21,847 nt of DNA from a virus, in IMG/VR virus record IMGVR_UViG_3300017763_000240, positions 1 to 21,847 of that record; one strand, given 5' to 3'. Within the stretch, counting starts at the first letter, position 1; every line of letters starts with the position of its first letter. Shown in pieces: positions 3,564 through 14,230 of this stretch. The notes under the pieces are model-generated. The model worked only from the letters and a program-made list of their open reading frames with translations, made no database searches and had not been told where the DNA came from. The translations under genes and the position numbers were made by a program.

Positions 3564-6500
3564 TTATACTGTTACATATGATGGAATAAAGTCTGGTACT
3601 TTTTTGGAATATTTTATTCTTGATTCTATCATTTTTTGTACTGCTGTTCTTACATCTGTTTTAGATGTTGATGGGTTTATTCCGTCTCCCCCATAATACG
3701 CCGATTTACCTGTTCCTGCTACTACATTTCCAACTTTGTTTTTATTTTTTGCTGTTTTTGATACAACGGGCATACTAGCCCATTCTTGACCTAAACCATC
3801 AATTGCTCTTTCTAAATCTCTTATAGATCCTGCATTATCACCATTTAAATATTTTCCTATTTGAGATCTTCTCTTTTTTAAGAGTAAATAATCACATACT
3901 ATTTCTTGACTTTCAGGATTAAATAATGCCGACCTTTCAATAATACCTTTTTTTACTGCTCCATTTAGAACTGTAGGTATTACTTGGTATCTACCCATAG
4001 CAAAAACAGCAGATGAACCTTTAGCATCAGCAAAAGTTGTTGATTTATTGTCTAATAAATCTGATATTGTGTTTTGTGTAATATCTGTTGAGGAAATTTT
4101 ATATCCCCCTTGCTTACCTTGGTTTGCTATACTGTATTTACCTCTAGATTCAAATTCAGCTATTAAATCTTTTATAGGCTGTAAGTCATTATTTGTGCCT
4201 TTAAATTTATTAGATAAAGGTGGTCTTGCAGGAGGGAATCCAGGGTCGGGTGCTTCATAATTCCTATTATATCTTTGTGTTCTAACATTTAAATTAGATG
4301 TTGATAAAGTTTCTAAATTAGTTGTCCACCCCATATTATCAATTTTATGGTTTAATCCTTTTACTAAAAACTCTAATGCTTCACTATAATTTGAAGGTAA
4401 TATTCTTTGATCAATATTTACTTTGTTATAAATTTTAAACCCTGAAATTCCATCTAGTTCTATATCAAATTCTACAGGAATAAAACCTGATTGGTTACTA
4501 GCACCTCCTCCTCCTTCTCCACTATTATATTGTTCGTTTGTATAATGTGATAACCACATTTTATAAGAATTTTTCCCTGCAGATGAAAAATCAGTACCAT
4601 TATATTGTACTGTATATTTTGCTTCATCACGATCAATATAAGAAATATTAATACCTATATTTCCAGCCTGTTCATTTGTAATTCTTGGCTTACCCCCAAA
4701 CATTGAAGCCAAATAAGCAGTGTAATTTACATCTGATACTGCCGCTCTCTTTTCTGCTCTTTTCTTTCTTTGGCTATCTACATCTGGGGATGTTTGGTCG
4801 TTTAAAGAATCACTAGCTGACCAGAAACCATTATCTGAAAATTCAAAATTAGGTTCTTGAACTTTATATGCTTTAGCTAGTGCTTTACATATTTCTTTAT
4901 ATAATTTTTGAGCCAAATTTTGAGCTGATTGAGTTGCACTTCTATTTTCACCCCCACCCGCAAACCAAGTACTATTTACACTTTTATTAAATATTTGTTG
5001 TAATGAATTATTCTGGAACCCAGTTAACTGTATTGTCTTGTCTTTATTTTCTTTAAAGGATCCATATTGTCTAAATAATTTAACCTTAATTTGAACGTCT
5101 CCAATTATTGCTCCGGTTTCATTATCAATAGTAAATTCAACTTTAGGGTTTTTTGATACAATTGTATATTGTTTAGAAAAATCTGTTACAGTGTCGTTAC
5201 CATGATTAAAAACATAATCAGAGTCTACATAACTAATTTTTGTAGTTTTTTGAGTTGTTACGGATTCACTACCTATTACAGATTGTACCTTAGTTCCCCC
5301 ACGAAATTTAATTAAATCATAATCTTGTTTTTGAGTATTAGTCAGATTACTTGTATCTGTATCCTCATCTCCTGGTTCTTCTATTACTTGGTTAAATCTA
5401 TCTAACATTCCTTTATTCCAATTAGAATATCCAGTTGCATCTTCTCCTACTGCTGTCCCTGATGCCGTTGCCCCAATGGCTAATTGATTTGAAATTTTAG
5501 GTGAGATTTTAGTATTAAAAGATAAAGATTTTACAAAAGTACCTTCACCTTTAGTTTTATTAAAACCAAATACTTCTATATTAGCTGTTTCAGAATGGTT
5601 AAATCCTGCTATAAGTTCTTTTAAACTTTTAGAACCACCCTGGATTGGTTTTTGGTCCATAAAAGTTATTACTTTATCATCTTTTATAATAGGTTCTATA
5701 TCTAATATATTAGCAAATGAAGAATTTATTTCATCACAAATCCCAACTAAAAATTTAAATAAAGTTAAAGCTCCTTTTTTATCTACTGTTTCTTTTAATA
5801 ATTTAAATATTATATCATAATTAAGATATATATTGTGTATTTCCCCCCATATAAGTGTACCTTTGCTTATTGTATCTAATGGTTTAATTTCTTTAATTTC
5901 TTCTAACTTACCAAATACTGTAACACCCATAAGCTTTGTTGCTTTATCTGATTTTTTTAAAATAATAGGATTACCATCTATATCTTTAAGTATCCCCAAT
6001 TTTATTCTCATATTTACTAGGGATTCAGAAAGATTTTTTACTCTAACTTTTCTTTCGGATTTAGTTTGTTTATTAATAATTGTTATTTCAGATATCCCTG
6101 CTAAATCCTCCTTTATAGAAGTTCTAATAAAAGGTTTCATTTTTTCTGTATAGTCTGGTGTTAATATGCCGCTCATACCTGTTTGGTTAAAAGCATACCC
6201 ATCGTCCATTTTTATCATACAAACTCTAGGGTCATAAGATATTAAATTAGGTGTATAACTACATATTGTATGAGTAGAATCTAAATCTATTTCTAAATGT
6301 TTAAAAGTACTATCATTAACATTAGGTAATATTTGTGTGTGTATAAGTCTTAATAATTCCCCAAAACTAACATAATAACAATACCTTTTATTTAAAGAAT
6401 TTTCTCCAACAGAAGGGGAAGATGAATCTTTTTTATAAGTAGAAATACCACCATAATTATCTGATGATGCTATAGCATGGTGTAAATTAAAATAATTTTT

Positions 6501-7511
6501 ATCTCCATCTGCTTTCCATAATGAATTTTGGGCTAATTTTTCATATAATAAAGCTCCCAGTTGGGTTGAAGATTTTTCAGAGGATATAATACTTCCTTCT
6601 TTTTTAAGATATTTTAATCTATTATTACCATTAGATGAAACTGCTTCATTTTCTAATCCTGATACCTTATCATGTAGTTTTTTATTTGGAGTAGTATTAA
6701 TTTTAAAGGATTCCATTACATCTCCTAAACTAGCTAATTTAATTGTAATTTTATAGGTACCATCATCTTCAAAGCTCCAATTAAAATTAGTTACTCTACC
6801 AAAATATCCATCATAATTTCCATTATAAATTGATCGAAAGCTTATAATTGATTGTAAAATATCATCCTGGTTATTAGTCCCAAAAAATGATGTTTCTGTT
6901 ACAGTATTCCCTACATTTTCAATTTTATTAGTTTCATGATTTATATACTTATCCCACCCCCATTCTATTAATAAAGTAAAACCAAGTCTTAAATATAAAG
7001 CTTCTATAATTTCAAACTGAAATTTATTAAAAGCTGTTAAAGTAATAGTAGCAGTTCTAATTGATCCTCTATTTTTATTAGTAATATTAACAGTTTCAAT
7101 ACCAGGCATGGGTTGAAAACCTTGTTCTGTCCCTCCTAATCCATATACTGAGTTGTTAAATACTTTACTATTCCCAGGACCATTGCCCGCTAAATTTGCG
7201 CCTTGTCTTTGGGTTGTTACTCCAGCTACTAAGGAAGATAAACCATTAAATAATAAAGCTTTTTTTGCTAGCCCATTCTGTTTAAATAAATTTAATTGGG
7301 TATTAGGGATTGATTTAGGTAATTTTGCACCAGGATCCGTAACACTTGCTCCTGATGCTACTTTTATCCAAGCATTTCTATTATTCATGTATATAGCCTG
7401 ATCCGTGGTTCTTGCTTTACCATCAGATCCTGCTCCATAAATTTTTTGCCTAAGCTTGACTTCTTTAGCAACAAATCCTTCCGTTGGTTCTCCTATTATA
7501 TTACCTGTCAT
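3564..7511 (-). CDS. Baseplate hub protein (gp27-like) with C-terminal peptidoglycan-cleaving domain
   Basis: 1315 aa, the largest gene here. The N-terminal third looks like a phage hub: IETVNITNKNRGSIRTATI (about 139-157), then LYLRLGFTLLIEWGWD, a segment typical of gp27-type hub domains in T4-like and related phages. The middle (about 300-1085) is long, strand-rich and low in recognisable motifs. The C-terminus (about 1110-1275) matches a lambda-R-like lytic transglycosylase: a candidate catalytic Glu at E1121 in EFESRGKYSIAN, then FAMGRYQVIP (G1173-R-Y-Q1176), FNPESQEIV and ERAIDGLGQEWASMP. Lambda R carries GAGRYQLL, FSPKSQDAV and QAIDRCSNIWASLP in the same order. It probably opens the cell wall locally during DNA injection, the job done by the lysozyme domain of T4 gp5. 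It lies between the LysM protein and the 249-aa gene, with 3-base gaps. Confidence 0.8.
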   Translation of the reverse strand: MTGNIIGEPTEGFVAKEVKLRQKIYGAGSDGKARTTDQAIYMNNRNAWIKVASGASVTDPGAKLPKSIPNTQLNLFKQNGLAKKALLFNGLSSLVAGVTTQRQGANLAGNGPGNSKVFNNSVYGLGGTEQGFQPMPGIETVNITNKNRGSIRTATITLTAFNKFQFEIIEALYLRLGFTLLIEWGWDKYINHETNKIENVGNTVTETSFFGTNNQDDILQSIISFRSIYNGNYDGYFGRVTNFNWSFEDDGTYKITIKLASLGDVMESFKINTTPNKKLHDKVSGLENEAVSSNGNNRLKYLKKEGSIISSEKSSTQLGALLYEKLAQNSLWKADGDKNYFNLHHAIASSDNYGGISTYKKDSSSPSVGENSLNKRYCYYVSFGELLRLIHTQILPNVNDSTFKHLEIDLDSTHTICSYTPNLISYDPRVCMIKMDDGYAFNQTGMSGILTPDYTEKMKPFIRTSIKEDLAGISEITIINKQTKSERKVRVKNLSESLVNMRIKLGILKDIDGNPIILKKSDKATKLMGVTVFGKLEEIKEIKPLDTISKGTLIWGEIHNIYLNYDIIFKLLKETVDKKGALTLFKFLVGICDEINSSFANILDIEPIIKDDKVITFMDQKPIQGGSKSLKELIAGFNHSETANIEVFGFNKTKGEGTFVKSLSFNTKISPKISNQLAIGATASGTAVGEDATGYSNWNKGMLDRFNQVIEEPGDEDTDTSNLTNTQKQDYDLIKFRGGTKVQSVIGSESVTTQKTTKISYVDSDYVFNHGNDTVTDFSKQYTIVSKNPKVEFTIDNETGAIIGDVQIKVKLFRQYGSFKENKDKTIQLTGFQNNSLQQIFNKSVNSTWFAGGGENRSATQSAQNLAQKLYKEICKALAKAYKVQEPNFEFSDNGFWSASDSLNDQTSPDVDSQRKKRAEKRAAVSDVNYTAYLASMFGGKPRITNEQAGNIGINISYIDRDEAKYTVQYNGTDFSSAGKNSYKMWLSHYTNEQYNSGEGGGGASNQSGFIPVEFDIELDGISGFKIYNKVNIDQRILPSNYSEALEFLVKGLNHKIDNMGWTTNLETLSTSNLNVRTQRYNRNYEAPDPGFPPARPPLSNKFKGTNNDLQPIKDLIAEFESRGKYSIANQGKQGGYKISSTDITQNTISDLLDNKSTTFADAKGSSAVFAMGRYQVIPTVLNGAVKKGIIERSALFNPESQEIVCDYLLLKKRRSQIGKYLNGDNAGSIRDLERAIDGLGQEWASMPVVSKTAKNKNKVGNVVAGTGKSAYYGGDGINPSTSKTDVRTAVQKMIESRIKYSKKVPDFIPSYVTV

Positions 7512-9814: not shown

Positions 9815-12241
9815 TTAAGGGGAAACTTCATAAGTATTCATTGATATGGCAGTTCCCATTTTTTCTGCATCAAGTGATACTGTCCCTTGTGTAGTTAAAA
9901 TTTGGTTAAGTAAGGCATTAGTTTGTGCTTGAAGTTCTTCTAATCTTTTACTAGTAGAATTCCCACCAGATAAGGCTGCAGCCGCTCCTGGTGCTGCTAC
10001 TATATCATCATTAGGTGAAAGTTCAAATAAACCACCTTCTCTGGTGGATACCATTGTTTTTCCACCTCCTGCTTGTGACATTAAATCCCCCGCTTTTTGG
10101 GATTTTACTTTAGAAGTTCCCATTGCAATAGCTCCTATTAAAGCACTTACACCTGCTATTGCAAACCCAATACCTAATGGACCAAATTTAGCATTTTCAC
10201 CAAACATTTTTGCAATGGCTTGTATTACAGTTTGTATGGCAATAAAAGCACTTACAGCTTTCATCCCAACTAAAACTCCAATTAACGCCCCCGCTAATAT
10301 TTTTGATTCAGCTAATCCTTTAACTATACCAGTAATAAAAGCAAATACAGGTTCTAATGTGATAGCTACTTTCATAAATGCATCATTAATTTTTTCTGAT
10401 GCTTCATGAAATTGTGTAGCTAATCCCGCTTGATGTTTTAAATCGTCTATTGATTTTTCAGCTAATTCTTTTTTTATTTCTTCTTGAGATAATCCTTTAG
10501 CTTCTAATTCATTAATTTGTTTTTCTCTTATAGCATATTCTTCACCTGAAAGATTACCTATTTGTTCTTGTACAAATAATGTTTTTGCTAATTGTTCTCT
10601 AGTCATTCCTACTGATTCAGCTAATGCCTGTTGTTGTAGGAAGTTTAACTCATTAAAATCTTGTTGGTTTTCTAATTGTTTATTTATTTCAGTTGCAACC
10701 CCTGCTAAATCATTATTTAATGCAAATTGTCTTGCTTTTTCTAAATTAATATTTCTACCTAATAATAATTCAGCTTCTAATTCTTTTTCTATTGATGATT
10801 CAAAATTTAATAAAGATTCAGCTATACCAGCTACATCACCTAATTCCATCCCTAAAGATTTAGCGGTAGCAACAGCATCCGCTATTAATGCTGGGTTTTT
10901 ACCAAATGACATTGTAATTGCTGCTGATACTTTATCTATATCTTTTAATAGTTCTTTTTCATTAAGAACTGCTTTATTTTGGGTAGCTGTAAGTTTAACT
11001 TGAGCCATAAATTCCCCAGTCATTTCTTCAAGATTTCCTCCTGTAGCCAAAGCTAATGAATTTATACCCATTAACTCCTCACTAGTAAAACCAGCAGCAT
11101 TTTGTAATTTTACAAAAGTTTTTAAATTTTCATTATTTAATTTAACTGATGTTCCTAATGCTTTATTTATATCTAGGTTAGCTTTAATTAAAGACTTAGT
11201 ATTTACTTTATAATCTTCAGATTGAATAGCAGCATTATTTAATTCTTTTACAAAACCTTGTGCTTCCGAAACACTCATATTCATGCCCCGAGCTATATCT
11301 TCAATTCCCTTATCTGCATTTTTAATAGCACTAACAAATTTACTTGTTAGAGTACCAACAACCGCCATTGGGTCTACTAAATTTTTAGCTAAATTAGCAC
11401 CTAATGTAGCTGTACCCGCTGATAAAACCTTCATTTGACCCACAAAACCTGTGGCTTCCTTTCCACCTTTAGTAACCTCCTTGGCTACTTTTCTCATTTC
11501 TTTTTGAGCTTCATCTAAACCTAGTCTACCAGCTAAACCGCCAAGCCCCATTTTATCTAAAGCTTTGCCAACTCCTTTAATAGCGGCCCCTCCTAATCCT
11601 AGAGCATCATCAATTTTTTCCTCTTCAGCTAACCTTTGTTTAGCTATTCTAACTAAATCTGCAGATAGACCTTTTCCCTCCTCCATTTCGGCATTACCCG
11701 CCCTTAAGGAATTATTAATTAATACTAGTTCATCTCTGTTCTTTTTTTTCTGAGCTAGTTCTTTGTTTGAATTTCCTAAAGATTTATTTTGTTCAATTAA
11801 TTCTTGTTTACGTTGTTCAAGAATACTTTGATTATCTTTTAACTCTTGTTTCTTTTTACCTAATTTTGTAACTAAACTATTTAAGTCTTTAGTACTAAGT
11901 TCCGCTATGCCTGCTTGATCATTTCTTAATGTCGTAGCAATTTTACTAATATCACTAAAAGTTTTTTTATTGGTATTTAAAGCATTATTAGACTTAGATA
12001 TTTCCTGAACTGTAAGTTTAAAAGCAGAGACAATGTTATCCAATTCTGAATTCATTTCCTCTAATTGCTTGGTCACATCATTAAGACCAGCATTTAATTG
12101 ACCAACAGTTTCGTCAAAATCTTTAGCTTTACTTATATCAAAATTTCTAAAGGGATCTGTTTTGCCCAATTGAGTATAAGAAGAATTTATCTTATCTAAA
12201 AGGGATTGTGCTTGTTTTAATTGATCAGGATTAAGAGCCAT
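9815..12241 (-). CDS. 29: Tail tape measure protein
   Basis: 808 aa. Such proteins fill the tail tube during assembly, set tail length and may take part in DNA delivery. The N-terminal half (about 1-215) is almost all helical and coiled-coil-like, rich in Lys, Glu, Gln and Asn. A Gly-rich link (about 220-245, LGGLAGRLG) follows, then more long helices. A strongly hydrophobic region at about 625-725 (ALIGVLVGMKAVSAFIAI; IGFAIAGVSALIGAI) is typical of tape measures and could enter a membrane. The C-terminus has a coiled-coil LEELQAQTNALLNQILTTQG and ends in TVSLDAEKMGTAISM, a pattern seen at the ends of other phage tape measures. It follows the gp26-like/chaperone pair, the usual position for a tape measure, and has its own upstream motif and preceding terminator. 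It is longer than T4 gp29 (590 aa). Confidence 0.85.
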   Translation of the reverse strand: MALNPDQLKQAQSLLDKINSSYTQLGKTDPFRNFDISKAKDFDETVGQLNAGLNDVTKQLEEMNSELDNIVSAFKLTVQEISKSNNALNTNKKTFSDISKIATTLRNDQAGIAELSTKDLNSLVTKLGKKKQELKDNQSILEQRKQELIEQNKSLGNSNKELAQKKKNRDELVLINNSLRAGNAEMEEGKGLSADLVRIAKQRLAEEEKIDDALGLGGAAIKGVGKALDKMGLGGLAGRLGLDEAQKEMRKVAKEVTKGGKEATGFVGQMKVLSAGTATLGANLAKNLVDPMAVVGTLTSKFVSAIKNADKGIEDIARGMNMSVSEAQGFVKELNNAAIQSEDYKVNTKSLIKANLDINKALGTSVKLNNENLKTFVKLQNAAGFTSEELMGINSLALATGGNLEEMTGEFMAQVKLTATQNKAVLNEKELLKDIDKVSAAITMSFGKNPALIADAVATAKSLGMELGDVAGIAESLLNFESSIEKELEAELLLGRNINLEKARQFALNNDLAGVATEINKQLENQQDFNELNFLQQQALAESVGMTREQLAKTLFVQEQIGNLSGEEYAIREKQINELEAKGLSQEEIKKELAEKSIDDLKHQAGLATQFHEASEKINDAFMKVAITLEPVFAFITGIVKGLAESKILAGALIGVLVGMKAVSAFIAIQTVIQAIAKMFGENAKFGPLGIGFAIAGVSALIGAIAMGTSKVKSQKAGDLMSQAGGGKTMVSTREGGLFELSPNDDIVAAPGAAAALSGGNSTSKRLEELQAQTNALLNQILTTQGTVSLDAEKMGTAISMNTYEVSP

Positions 12242-12273: not shown

Positions 12274-12302
12274 AAAAAGAGCAACTATTTATAGCTGCTC
12301 TT
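12274..12302 (-). terminator. Hairpin terminator overlapping the stop of the chaperone-like frame
   Basis: The minus strand reads AAGAGCA, G, CTA, loop TAAA, TAG, T, TGCTCTT, and the T run continues to five. That is a 7-bp stem, one mismatch and a 3-bp upper stem. The TAG of the upper stem is the stop codon of the 95-codon frame (12287-12285). It separates the chaperone unit from the tape measure unit. The short T run makes it weaker than the other two terminators here. Confidence 0.6.
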
Positions 12303-12572
12303 CCCTTTATATGGTTTTGATGCTTTAGCAAATTCAGGTACATTTACCTTTCCATCTGTGCTAATCATTGTTTTTTGATTTTTTCCAGTTTTCGCATCTT
12401 CATGTGCTTTTGCTTCCTTTTTAAAATATCTTTCTATTTCTTTAAAAGTAAATCTTCTTAACCAAATGGGCATATTATATAAAGTGTAATAATCATACCC
12501 CCCTTTTCCATGAAATACTATTTCATGTAATTCTTTAAATAAATTTACTCTAATTTGAGAACTATTCTCCAA
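12285..12572 (-). CDS. Tail assembly chaperone-like frame, probably expressed by frameshift from the gp26-like gene
   Basis: 95 codons from TTG (12572) to TAG. The frame has no ATG before residue 35, which lies inside its most conserved-looking stretch (GGYDYYTLYNMPIWLRRF, about 24-41). The frame is also open upstream of the TTG to a TAG at 12599-12597, and overlaps the end of the gp26-like gene. The Y-N-M/L-P-x-x-L-R-x-F pattern resembles small helical proteins next to tape measures in other T4-type phages, which I take to be tail assembly chaperones that hold the tape measure before tube assembly. A Lys-rich tail follows (about 42-95). Two readings are possible: reinitiation at TTG, or a +1 frameshift on the T7 run at 12588-12582 producing a fusion of about 334 aa. 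I favour the frameshift. Confidence 0.68.
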   Translation of the reverse strand: MENSSQIRVNLFKELHEIVFHGKGGYDYYTLYNMPIWLRRFTFKEIERYFKKEAKAHEDAKTGKNQKTMISTDGKVNVPEFAKASKPYKGKSSYK

Positions 12573-13290
12573 AGTCAGGCCAAAAAAAGTCGAGCCCTAT
12601 AGGCACACTTACCTCCTCTCCACTGTCCGTAGATACAGTTAAATTTACGTCTGGTTGTGTCTTTTTTATATGGTCTCTAAATGCCCTAGAATCTCTAGCT
12701 AATAGTTGATTATCTACAAATTCTCTGATTGTTTTTGATTCATTATCACCCCCTACAGAAGTAATAATATATTTTAATCTTGTTGTAAGTGTTGGTGAAT
12801 TATTCGGGTTTATTTTTTTAAGACCCTCTAATTCTCTTTCAATTTTTCTTTCATCACTACCATTTAAAATTTTATAAGTAATTTCAGTGTTAGTAGTTGG
12901 AAGAGTATAACTAAATTCATTTACACCAGGGGTAGCATGTTCAAATGGATTATTTTCTAATTGAGTTAAATCAATATTTTCTTTTTTACCATTATATGTT
13001 ATTTGATATTCTTTTCCATATCCTAAAATACGGGTAGCTATTAAAATTGCATTTTTATCACCAACTACTAAATCATTAATTTTGATTTTTTTATCTATAA
13101 TAACAGACTCTAATAATTTATCTAGTACAACACCTTTTGTAATATATGATTGATTAGATAGAATATCTTCTTCTTTTGCAGTCATATATTTTACTTCAAC
13201 TTTACCGCTTGAAAGAACATGATCTGTAGAGTATAATAATCCTTTAGATGGTAATTCTACTTCTTCGGTTGGGAATTTAAATTCGGCCAT
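12562..13290 (-). CDS. 26: gp26-like baseplate hub / tail assembly protein
   Basis: 242 aa. It begins with FKFPTEEVELPSKGLLY (4-20), then VEVKYMTAKEEDILSN and a helix-rich region (LDKLLESVIIDKKIKINDLV; AILIATRILGYGKEYQI) typical of the gp26-like T4 baseplate protein family, which has relatives across T4-type phages. T4 gp26 is 208 aa. The C-terminus SVPIGLDFFWPDFGE holds a run of seven T at the two Phe codons (F235, F236), which is the candidate frameshift site into the downstream frame. The protein lies directly before the tape measure, like the shorter member of a lambda G/GT-type chaperone pair. The ATG at 13290 has no Shine-Dalgarno sequence; a degenerate late-type motif lies about 30 bases upstream (13330-13321). 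Confidence 0.7.
   Translation of the reverse strand: MAEFKFPTEEVELPSKGLLYSTDHVLSSGKVEVKYMTAKEEDILSNQSYITKGVVLDKLLESVIIDKKIKINDLVVGDKNAILIATRILGYGKEYQITYNGKKENIDLTQLENNPFEHATPGVNEFSYTLPTTNTEITYKILNGSDERKIERELEGLKKINPNNSPTLTTRLKYIITSVGGDNESKTIREFVDNQLLARDSRAFRDHIKKTQPDVNLTVSTDSGEEVSVPIGLDFFWPDFGE
12582..12588 (-). promoter_or_regulatory. Candidate programmed +1 frameshift site
   Basis: The minus-strand codons GAC TTT TTT TGG (D234-F235-F236-W237) contain seven consecutive T. After the second TTT, the Phe tRNA can slip one base forward and keep perfect pairing, and the next codon becomes GGC in the frame of the 95-codon protein. That frame is open from 12596 onwards, so the product is continuous. 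A weak hairpin GAGAA-TAG-TTCTC, with the zero-frame stop in its loop, lies just downstream (12569-12557). A -1 slip would not reach this frame. Confidence 0.5.
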
Positions 13291-13741: not shown

Positions 13742-14230
13742 TTAGAAATTTAATACACAATAATCTGGTTGTACAGTCATTGTAATTTCTTGAGCAGCAT
13801 CTGCATTATCCCAATTATAATCTCCAAATGAAGCTTCTGTAATCATAGCTCCTTTAATAACCCATTCAGAAACTACATCACCTACAGGACCTAAAACATT
13901 AAATGTTAAGTCTTTTTTATAGAAATCGGAATATCCATCTCTACCTGTTACTGATTCATGGTGTAATCTTACCCATTCCATTATAGCTTGGGCACCTGAT
14001 GGGGTAATTGGATCAAATAGTGTAAATGAAACTGTGTTCCATACAGTTTTACCTTTTACGTAACGTTGTACGTTTATATGGTTAAGTGCTACACTACCTT
14101 GAGTTAATGATACAGCTCCAACACCTTTTACCATATACGACGGAAATCCGTCCATATACATGATAAACCTATTTTGCTGCTTGGGTTCAAACGCTGTGAA
14201 AAATATTTCGTTAGGATCTAATACTGCCAT
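13742..14230 (-). CDS. 19: Tail tube protein (gp19)
   Basis: 162 aa, almost the same length as T4 gp19 (163). It polymerises as stacked hexameric rings to form the inner tail tube, inside the sheath encoded just upstream. Features include N-terminal NRFIMYMDGFPSYMVKGVGA (20-39), strand-rich KTVWNTVSFTLFDPITPSGA, a helix MEWVRLHHESVTGR, and a C-terminal WVIKGAMITEASFGDYNWDN with ITMTVQPDYCVL. The 'xxG.xPTEASFGDLDW' type ending is common in phage tail tubes, where it forms part of the inner barrel. It has its own late-type motif 17 bases before the ATG and a strong terminator behind it, so it can be made as a short abundant transcript, as expected for a high-copy protein. Confidence 0.88.
   Translation of the reverse strand: MAVLDPNEIFFTAFEPKQQNRFIMYMDGFPSYMVKGVGAVSLTQGSVALNHINVQRYVKGKTVWNTVSFTLFDPITPSGAQAIMEWVRLHHESVTGRDGYSDFYKKDLTFNVLGPVGDVVSEWVIKGAMITEASFGDYNWDNADAAQEITMTVQPDYCVLNF

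Follow-up and report, generated by a model that had tools for sequence, protein, structure and literature searches.

A conserved T-rich site for probable +1 ribosomal frameshifting in the gp26-like putative tail assembly chaperone gene of a large phage group

The virus record IMGVR_UViG_3300017763_000240, analyzed here over positions 1 to 21,847 (the window), stems from a marine phage that very probably uses programmed +1 ribosomal frameshifting to make a pair of tail assembly chaperones from a single gene. A gp26-like gene would yield a short product (TAC-N) and, through a forward slip at a T-rich site, a long form (TAC-NC) carrying an additional C-terminal domain. Comparison with homologous loci strongly supports a shift in the +1 direction. 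At the sequence level, it shows a fixed site, an open homologous +1 frame, the lack of a general alternative start codon, and a swap to a separate ATG where the site is lost. That the shift takes place during infection, how efficient it would be, on which codon the slip falls, and that the products act as chaperones are inferences.

The genes of this region are encoded on the minus strand in the order tail tube, 89-aa ORF, gp26-like gene, +1-frame domain, and a large ORF (Table 1). The same order, with an annotated tape measure, occurs in the Flavobacterium phage immuto, and the place homologous to the 808-aa ORF is an annotated tape measure in both immuto and LIS04. The putative chaperone locus appears to sit between the tail tube and tape measure genes, as is the case for TAC-N/TAC-NC pairs. 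The gp26-like gene ends in the codons GGG CTC GAC TTT TTT TGG CCT GAC TTT GGA GAA TAG, in which the run of seven Ts occupies 12588-12582; TTTTTTTGGCCT occurs only once within the window. Reading in the +1 frame stays open between 12596 and its stop codon at 12287-12285, as a sequence-only reading of this DNA had described for the stretch leading from the T run into a 95-codon protein. Fusion at the second TTT gives a product of 334 aa (...GLDFFGLTLENSSQIRVNLFKELHEIVFHGKGGYDYYTLYNMPIWLRRF...), which is the approximate length that had been proposed.

Table 1. Features of the putative chaperone locus and its neighbors in the window.
Feature	Position	Strand	Basis or remark
gp26-like gene, zero-frame product, proposed short chaperone TAC-N	12562..13290	-	242 aa; ORF, PHROG_150, AlphaFold2 fold match
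Shift site TTT TTT TGG CCT	12577..12588 (read 12588 down to 12577)	-	Conserved block, codon uniformity
Zero-frame stop TAG	12562..12564	-	Distance from slip differs between homologues
+1-frame extension, proposed TAC-C domain	12285..12581	-	98 residues, GGC 12581-12579 to stop 12287-12285
TTG, sole in-frame start candidate before conserved core	12570..12572	-	Not conserved
GAGAA-TAG-TTCTC stem around stop	12557..12569	-	1/80 clusters; judged incidental
808-aa ORF in tape measure position, downstream	9815..12241	-	ORF and position only
Tail tube gene, upstream	13742..14230	-	PHROG_4542, E 9e-24

Conservation of the site was assessed in several sets of loci. When the 95-codon frame was used as the query, each of the best 80 IMG/VR loci had a gp26-like ORF upstream and a homologous downstream frame at +1. 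All 80 share TTT TTT TGG CCT GA, whereas the distance to the zero-frame stop varies and no start codon is common to them. The gp26 proteins from Microcystis phage Mel-JY01 and a megaphage served as queries to add further loci, and 164 sequences (IMG/VR, the window, and two phage records) were reduced to 80 clusters sharing less than 85% amino acid identity. A site of this type and an open +1 frame are kept in 78 of these clusters, as TTT TTT TGG CCT (72), CTT TTT TGG CCT (3), TTT TTT TAC CCT (2), or TTT CTT TGG CCT (1); the remaining two clusters are exceptions. A gp26 alignment search of genome contigs provided 11 more loci, all with the +1 frame open, of which 10 carry TTT TTT TGG CCT and one (L285) carries TTT TTT TTC CCT. 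Three loci that had been scored as -1 from open-frame length (L131, L162, and L172) were reassigned to +1 by homology.

The conservation of the site is far beyond chance. Each column of the 12-nt block is 96-100% identical across the 78 clusters, compared with mostly 30-70% for flanking third positions. The Phe, Phe, and Pro codons of the site rank as the top three for codon uniformity among 68 conserved amino acid columns: one Phe is TTT in 77 of 77 cases, the other is TTT in 75 and TTC in two, and the Pro is CCT in 79 and CCA in one. The next best column reaches 0.89, the median is 0.66, and other conserved Pro columns range from 0.35 to 0.58. Given background codon frequencies of 0.79 for TTT and 0.31 for CCT, a joint probability of about 4e-10 is obtained even when only 13 clusters, formed at 60% identity, are counted; this value treats clusters as independent and serves as a guide only. 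Because the fixed T of the Pro codon preserves a Leu in the +1 frame, dual coding can account for GGCCT, but not for the third base of either TTT codon.

One alternative is separate translation of the downstream protein, begun at the TTG or by ribosomes that re-initiate past the gp26 stop codon, with no fusion made. The TTG is indeed present in the window, where the first ATG of the downstream frame is residue 34. It had been noted earlier that the first ATG comes late, at residue 35 by that count, and that TTG is the only earlier candidate; apart from the residue number, this description holds. Across the clusters, however, no conservation of the TTG position (12572-12570) was found, and the TTG was rejected as the start of the downstream protein. 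The residues directly after the slip (Gly-Leu), which lie upstream of the TTG, are conserved, and in 65 of 78 clusters the stretch from the slip to the conserved core contains no ATG, GTG, or TTG. The expectation that related phages would conserve the T run and overlap rather than a start codon is thereby borne out. Separate translation would also leave the fixed TTT codons unexplained, and we consider it highly improbable.

A separate, ATG-started version of the downstream protein does exist in the two exceptional clusters, L265 (TTC TTG TAT CCT) and L269 (TTC CTT TGG CCA). In both, the downstream protein is not at +1 but starts at a separate ATG located 2-5 nt beyond the gp26 stop codon. Among the 80 clusters, loss of the site and gain of a separate ATG coincide exactly, so that the arrangement named beforehand as speaking against a frameshift, a separate start without a T run, occurs in these two clusters only and as a one-for-one swap. 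L265 and L269 may thus make a separate protein in place of a long chaperone. Pseudomonas phage Cygsa01 has a similar ATG-started version and no T run.

The proposed +1 shift would proceed as follows. The majority of ribosomes would read the gp26-like frame through to its stop codon and produce the 242-aa TAC-N. In a fraction of ribosomes, the Phe-tRNA that occupies the P site, paired to the second UUU while the A site holds UGG, would slip forward by one base, from 12585-12583 to 12584-12582, and re-pair with UUU. Translation would then continue with GGC (12581-12579) and CUG to give the 334-aa TAC-NC. By analogy with lambda gpG and gpGT, the part common to both products would be the one that binds the tape measure protein, and tail tube subunits would be brought in by the extra domain. 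The A-site codon in the compared loci is UGG, rarely UAC or UUC.

Loci with broken T runs bear on the direction of the shift. Those found with LR756508 as the query and grouping with it (n = 15) have TTC TTT TGG CCT, with only four Ts, and keep the +1 frame; L083 itself has TTT CTA TTC CCT. The immuto phages have TTT CTT TGG CCT, with three Ts, and also keep the +1 frame. In Bacillus SP-15-related phages, TTT TTT CAC, TTC TTT CGT, and TTT TTT AGT all lead into the +1 frame. These sites fit a one-base forward move in which the tRNA on UUU (or CUU) re-pairs with UUU or UUC; LIS04 (TTT TTT AGT) would slip on its first UUU. Streptococcus phage GXN1 carries TTC TTT CGT at the +1 site (L085, 5700-5720); UUU CGU is also the shift codon pair of influenza PA-X.

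Two further explanations would give the fused product from the same seven Ts. RNA polymerase might slip on the run, so that a minority of transcripts with one base lost or two gained join the two frames, or ribosomes might shift by -2 rather than +1, adding one Phe, as is known from other tail genes such as those of phage Mu. The T run of the window, taken alone, is compatible with either, and most clusters likewise have at least seven Ts, from which polymerase slippage would be expected to give an identical product. Such slippage calls for an unbroken homopolymer in all members, whereas the +1 frame is kept where the run counts only four Ts (lineage C), three (immuto), or six (CTT TTT TGG). 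The relatives with TTC TTT TGG and TTT CTT TGG would moreover re-pair poorly after a -2 shift, yet their frame is kept. These C-broken runs argue against both mechanisms; polymerase slippage, which the sequence-only reading had put forward as an alternative, does not account for them and is very unlikely, and a -2 shift is the least probable of all the explanations considered.

No known kind of stimulator was recognized around the +1 site. No enrichment of a Shine-Dalgarno-like signal was detected upstream of it (7 of 78 clusters, compared with about 10% background), and no conserved downstream RNA structure was found (mean z of -0.48 over 41 clusters; -1.4 for the window). A hairpin around the zero-frame stop, GAGAA-TAG-TTCTC, had been pointed out before; its stem is present in the window and in none of the 79 other clusters, and it was rejected as a conserved element. 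The prfB shift takes place next to a stop codon and has a Shine-Dalgarno stimulator, and this combination of an upstream Shine-Dalgarno sequence and a stop codon in the A site was not found at the window-group site. In prfB and SPP1 gp17.1, the P-site tRNA re-pairs one base downstream, as proposed for the window, and the immuto site offers CUU U, as in prfB. SPP1 gp17.1 also shifts next to a stop codon (CCC UAA), whereas the window has a sense codon in the A site and no such signal was seen there.

Profile comparisons link the window product to the gp26/gp51 family. The gp26-like protein of the window matches PHROG_150 (baseplate hub; E 9e-8), as do 15 of 16 fusions, and has no significant match in Pfam. 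T4 gp26 and gp51 both match PF12322/PHROG_150, and the C part of gp51 also matches PHROG_634. Alignments of the cyanophage fusions reach T4 gp51 (236 columns, 99.5%) and gp26 (99.5%), and that of the window-group fusion reaches the cyanophage fusion (264 columns, 98.0%). Between the window fusion and the T4 gp51 and gp26 profiles there is no direct match, and the cyanophage group provides the only link. Homology of the C domain with the gp51 C-terminus may likewise be indirect: the values are 95.6% from the window group to the cyanophages and 98.0% from these to T4, compared with 17% for the direct comparison. Through this chain of profiles, T4 appears to encode the same pair as two separate genes, gp26 and gp51. 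The window product fits the long chaperone of a gp26/gp51-type pair, with the TAC-N and TAC-NC functions suggested by position and homology; the earlier assignment to a G/GT-type pair agrees with both.

Structures of the gp26-like protein and the C domain were predicted separately. The AlphaFold2 model of the gp26-like protein is confident (pLDDT 93) and matches the fold of gp26-type proteins from phages, including that of SP-15 (E 2e-17). Searched against the PDB, it gave nothing below E 0.001; the HK97 TAC (2ob9) stood highest in the list with a probability of 0.35, and this predicted resemblance is only a hint. The C-domain model is helical (pLDDT 73), and a fold search with it gave no significant match. 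Used as a query, RAS14 gp26 yielded no relatives in IMG/VR, and SP-15 gp26 yielded only itself.

Elsewhere in the family, the second frame lies at -1. Cyanophage-type loci (L174-L253 and L091) have an open -1 frame in 79 of 81 cases, with T TTT TTC, and the other two end at contig ends. This heptamer is near-invariant at the gp26 end and leads into a small ORF that is annotated as gp51 in P-SSM5. A GAGG-like element lies 15-16 nt before the TTT, and Shine-Dalgarno-like 4-mers are present in 78 of 81 loci, compared with 12% background. The cyanophage gp26 end looks like a -1 frameshift site with a Shine-Dalgarno stimulator. Rhizobium phage LG08, Stenotrophomonas phage RAS14, and LR756511 likewise have an open -1 frame, as do the Straboviridae Cronobacter phage S13, Vibrio phage VmeM-32, and Aeromonas phage phiAS5 (L279, L280, and L281). 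In these last three, it follows T TTT TTC or T TTT TTT, and the annotation at that place is a gap or a 41-codon stub.

Frameshifted chaperone pairs are already known; unusual here are the forward direction and the fixity of a 12-base site in a large group. As proposed for the window, lambda makes two products from one gene directly before the tape measure, the minority product (gpGT) having an extra C domain. In contrast, lambda shifts by -1 and the window would shift by +1, and there is no significant sequence or PDB fold match between the systems, HK97 TAC 2ob9 being weakly similar. The TAC of Vandenendeviridae and Andersonviridae shares a conserved T-rich site at the TAC-N end and a downstream domain missed by annotation, whereas its conserved GTTTTT directs a -1 shift (PMC12846349). 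T4 was treated as an exception to G-T frameshifting in an older review (PMC5009743), and gp26 and gp51 have been listed as hub assembly chaperones (PMC3004832). According to Vladimirov et al. (2022), as cited in PMC12846349 and PMC10885494, T4-like TACs are made by frameshifting, with T4 gp26/gp51 as the two-gene version. These systems share with the window a short protein of the gp26 family (PHROG_150), to which, as proposed here, the long form adds a C domain. Frameshifting is reported in some T4-like groups, and the citing paper describes their poly-T signals as -1; the window has one gene with a probable +1 shift, T4 itself two genes. The TAC of the haloarchaeal myovirus HSTV-2, a contractile-tailed virus, very likely uses +1 (PMC5009743), a likeness drawn from its description only. 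In the literature covered, with Vladimirov et al. (2022) represented by the papers citing it, we found no description of a large gp26 clade that shifts by +1 on sense codons and without a Shine-Dalgarno sequence or RNA structure.

The phages with frameshift-made tail chaperone pairs would thus gain a large group from marine and fresh waters. One homologous family appears to reach the same two-domain output by shifting forward (+1), by shifting back (-1), through a separate gene with its own ATG, or, in T4, through two complete genes, and these four routes make the forces that set frameshift direction testable by comparison. In the annotated immuto, SP-15, LIS04, and GXN1 records examined, the downstream domain is either overlooked or cut short, and these records are open to re-annotation in this respect.

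Most genes of the window start without a Shine-Dalgarno sequence before the ATG and have A/T-rich upstream sequence. Together with the immuto phages (Flavobacterium) and several contigs binned as Bacteroidota, this suggests a Bacteroidota host, although the binning of phage contigs is unreliable. Bacteroidota ribosomes hide their anti-Shine-Dalgarno sequence. The minimal site of the clade, UUU UUU UGG CCU, would need no Shine-Dalgarno sequence, stop codon, or RNA structure, and the homologous cyanophage genes would use -1 with a conserved upstream GAGG. Shift direction may thus have changed with the host translation machinery, for example that of Bacteroidota, a speculative idea that we put forward tentatively and with some doubt.

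In L291 (CP070664.1), a WOR-3 assembly of 2.8 Mb, the shift-site phage tail genes adjoin a run of Ns, and the join there may be chimeric. On the minus strand of the window, a 425-aa ORF at 1510-2787 resembles a DNA polymerase A palm domain by eye (DISAFHPSLAARL..., YDSFLFD) and has no Pfam match, and a very long ORF of 1315 aa at 3564-7511 occupies a hub position, its sole match being to a PHROG at 1122-1247.
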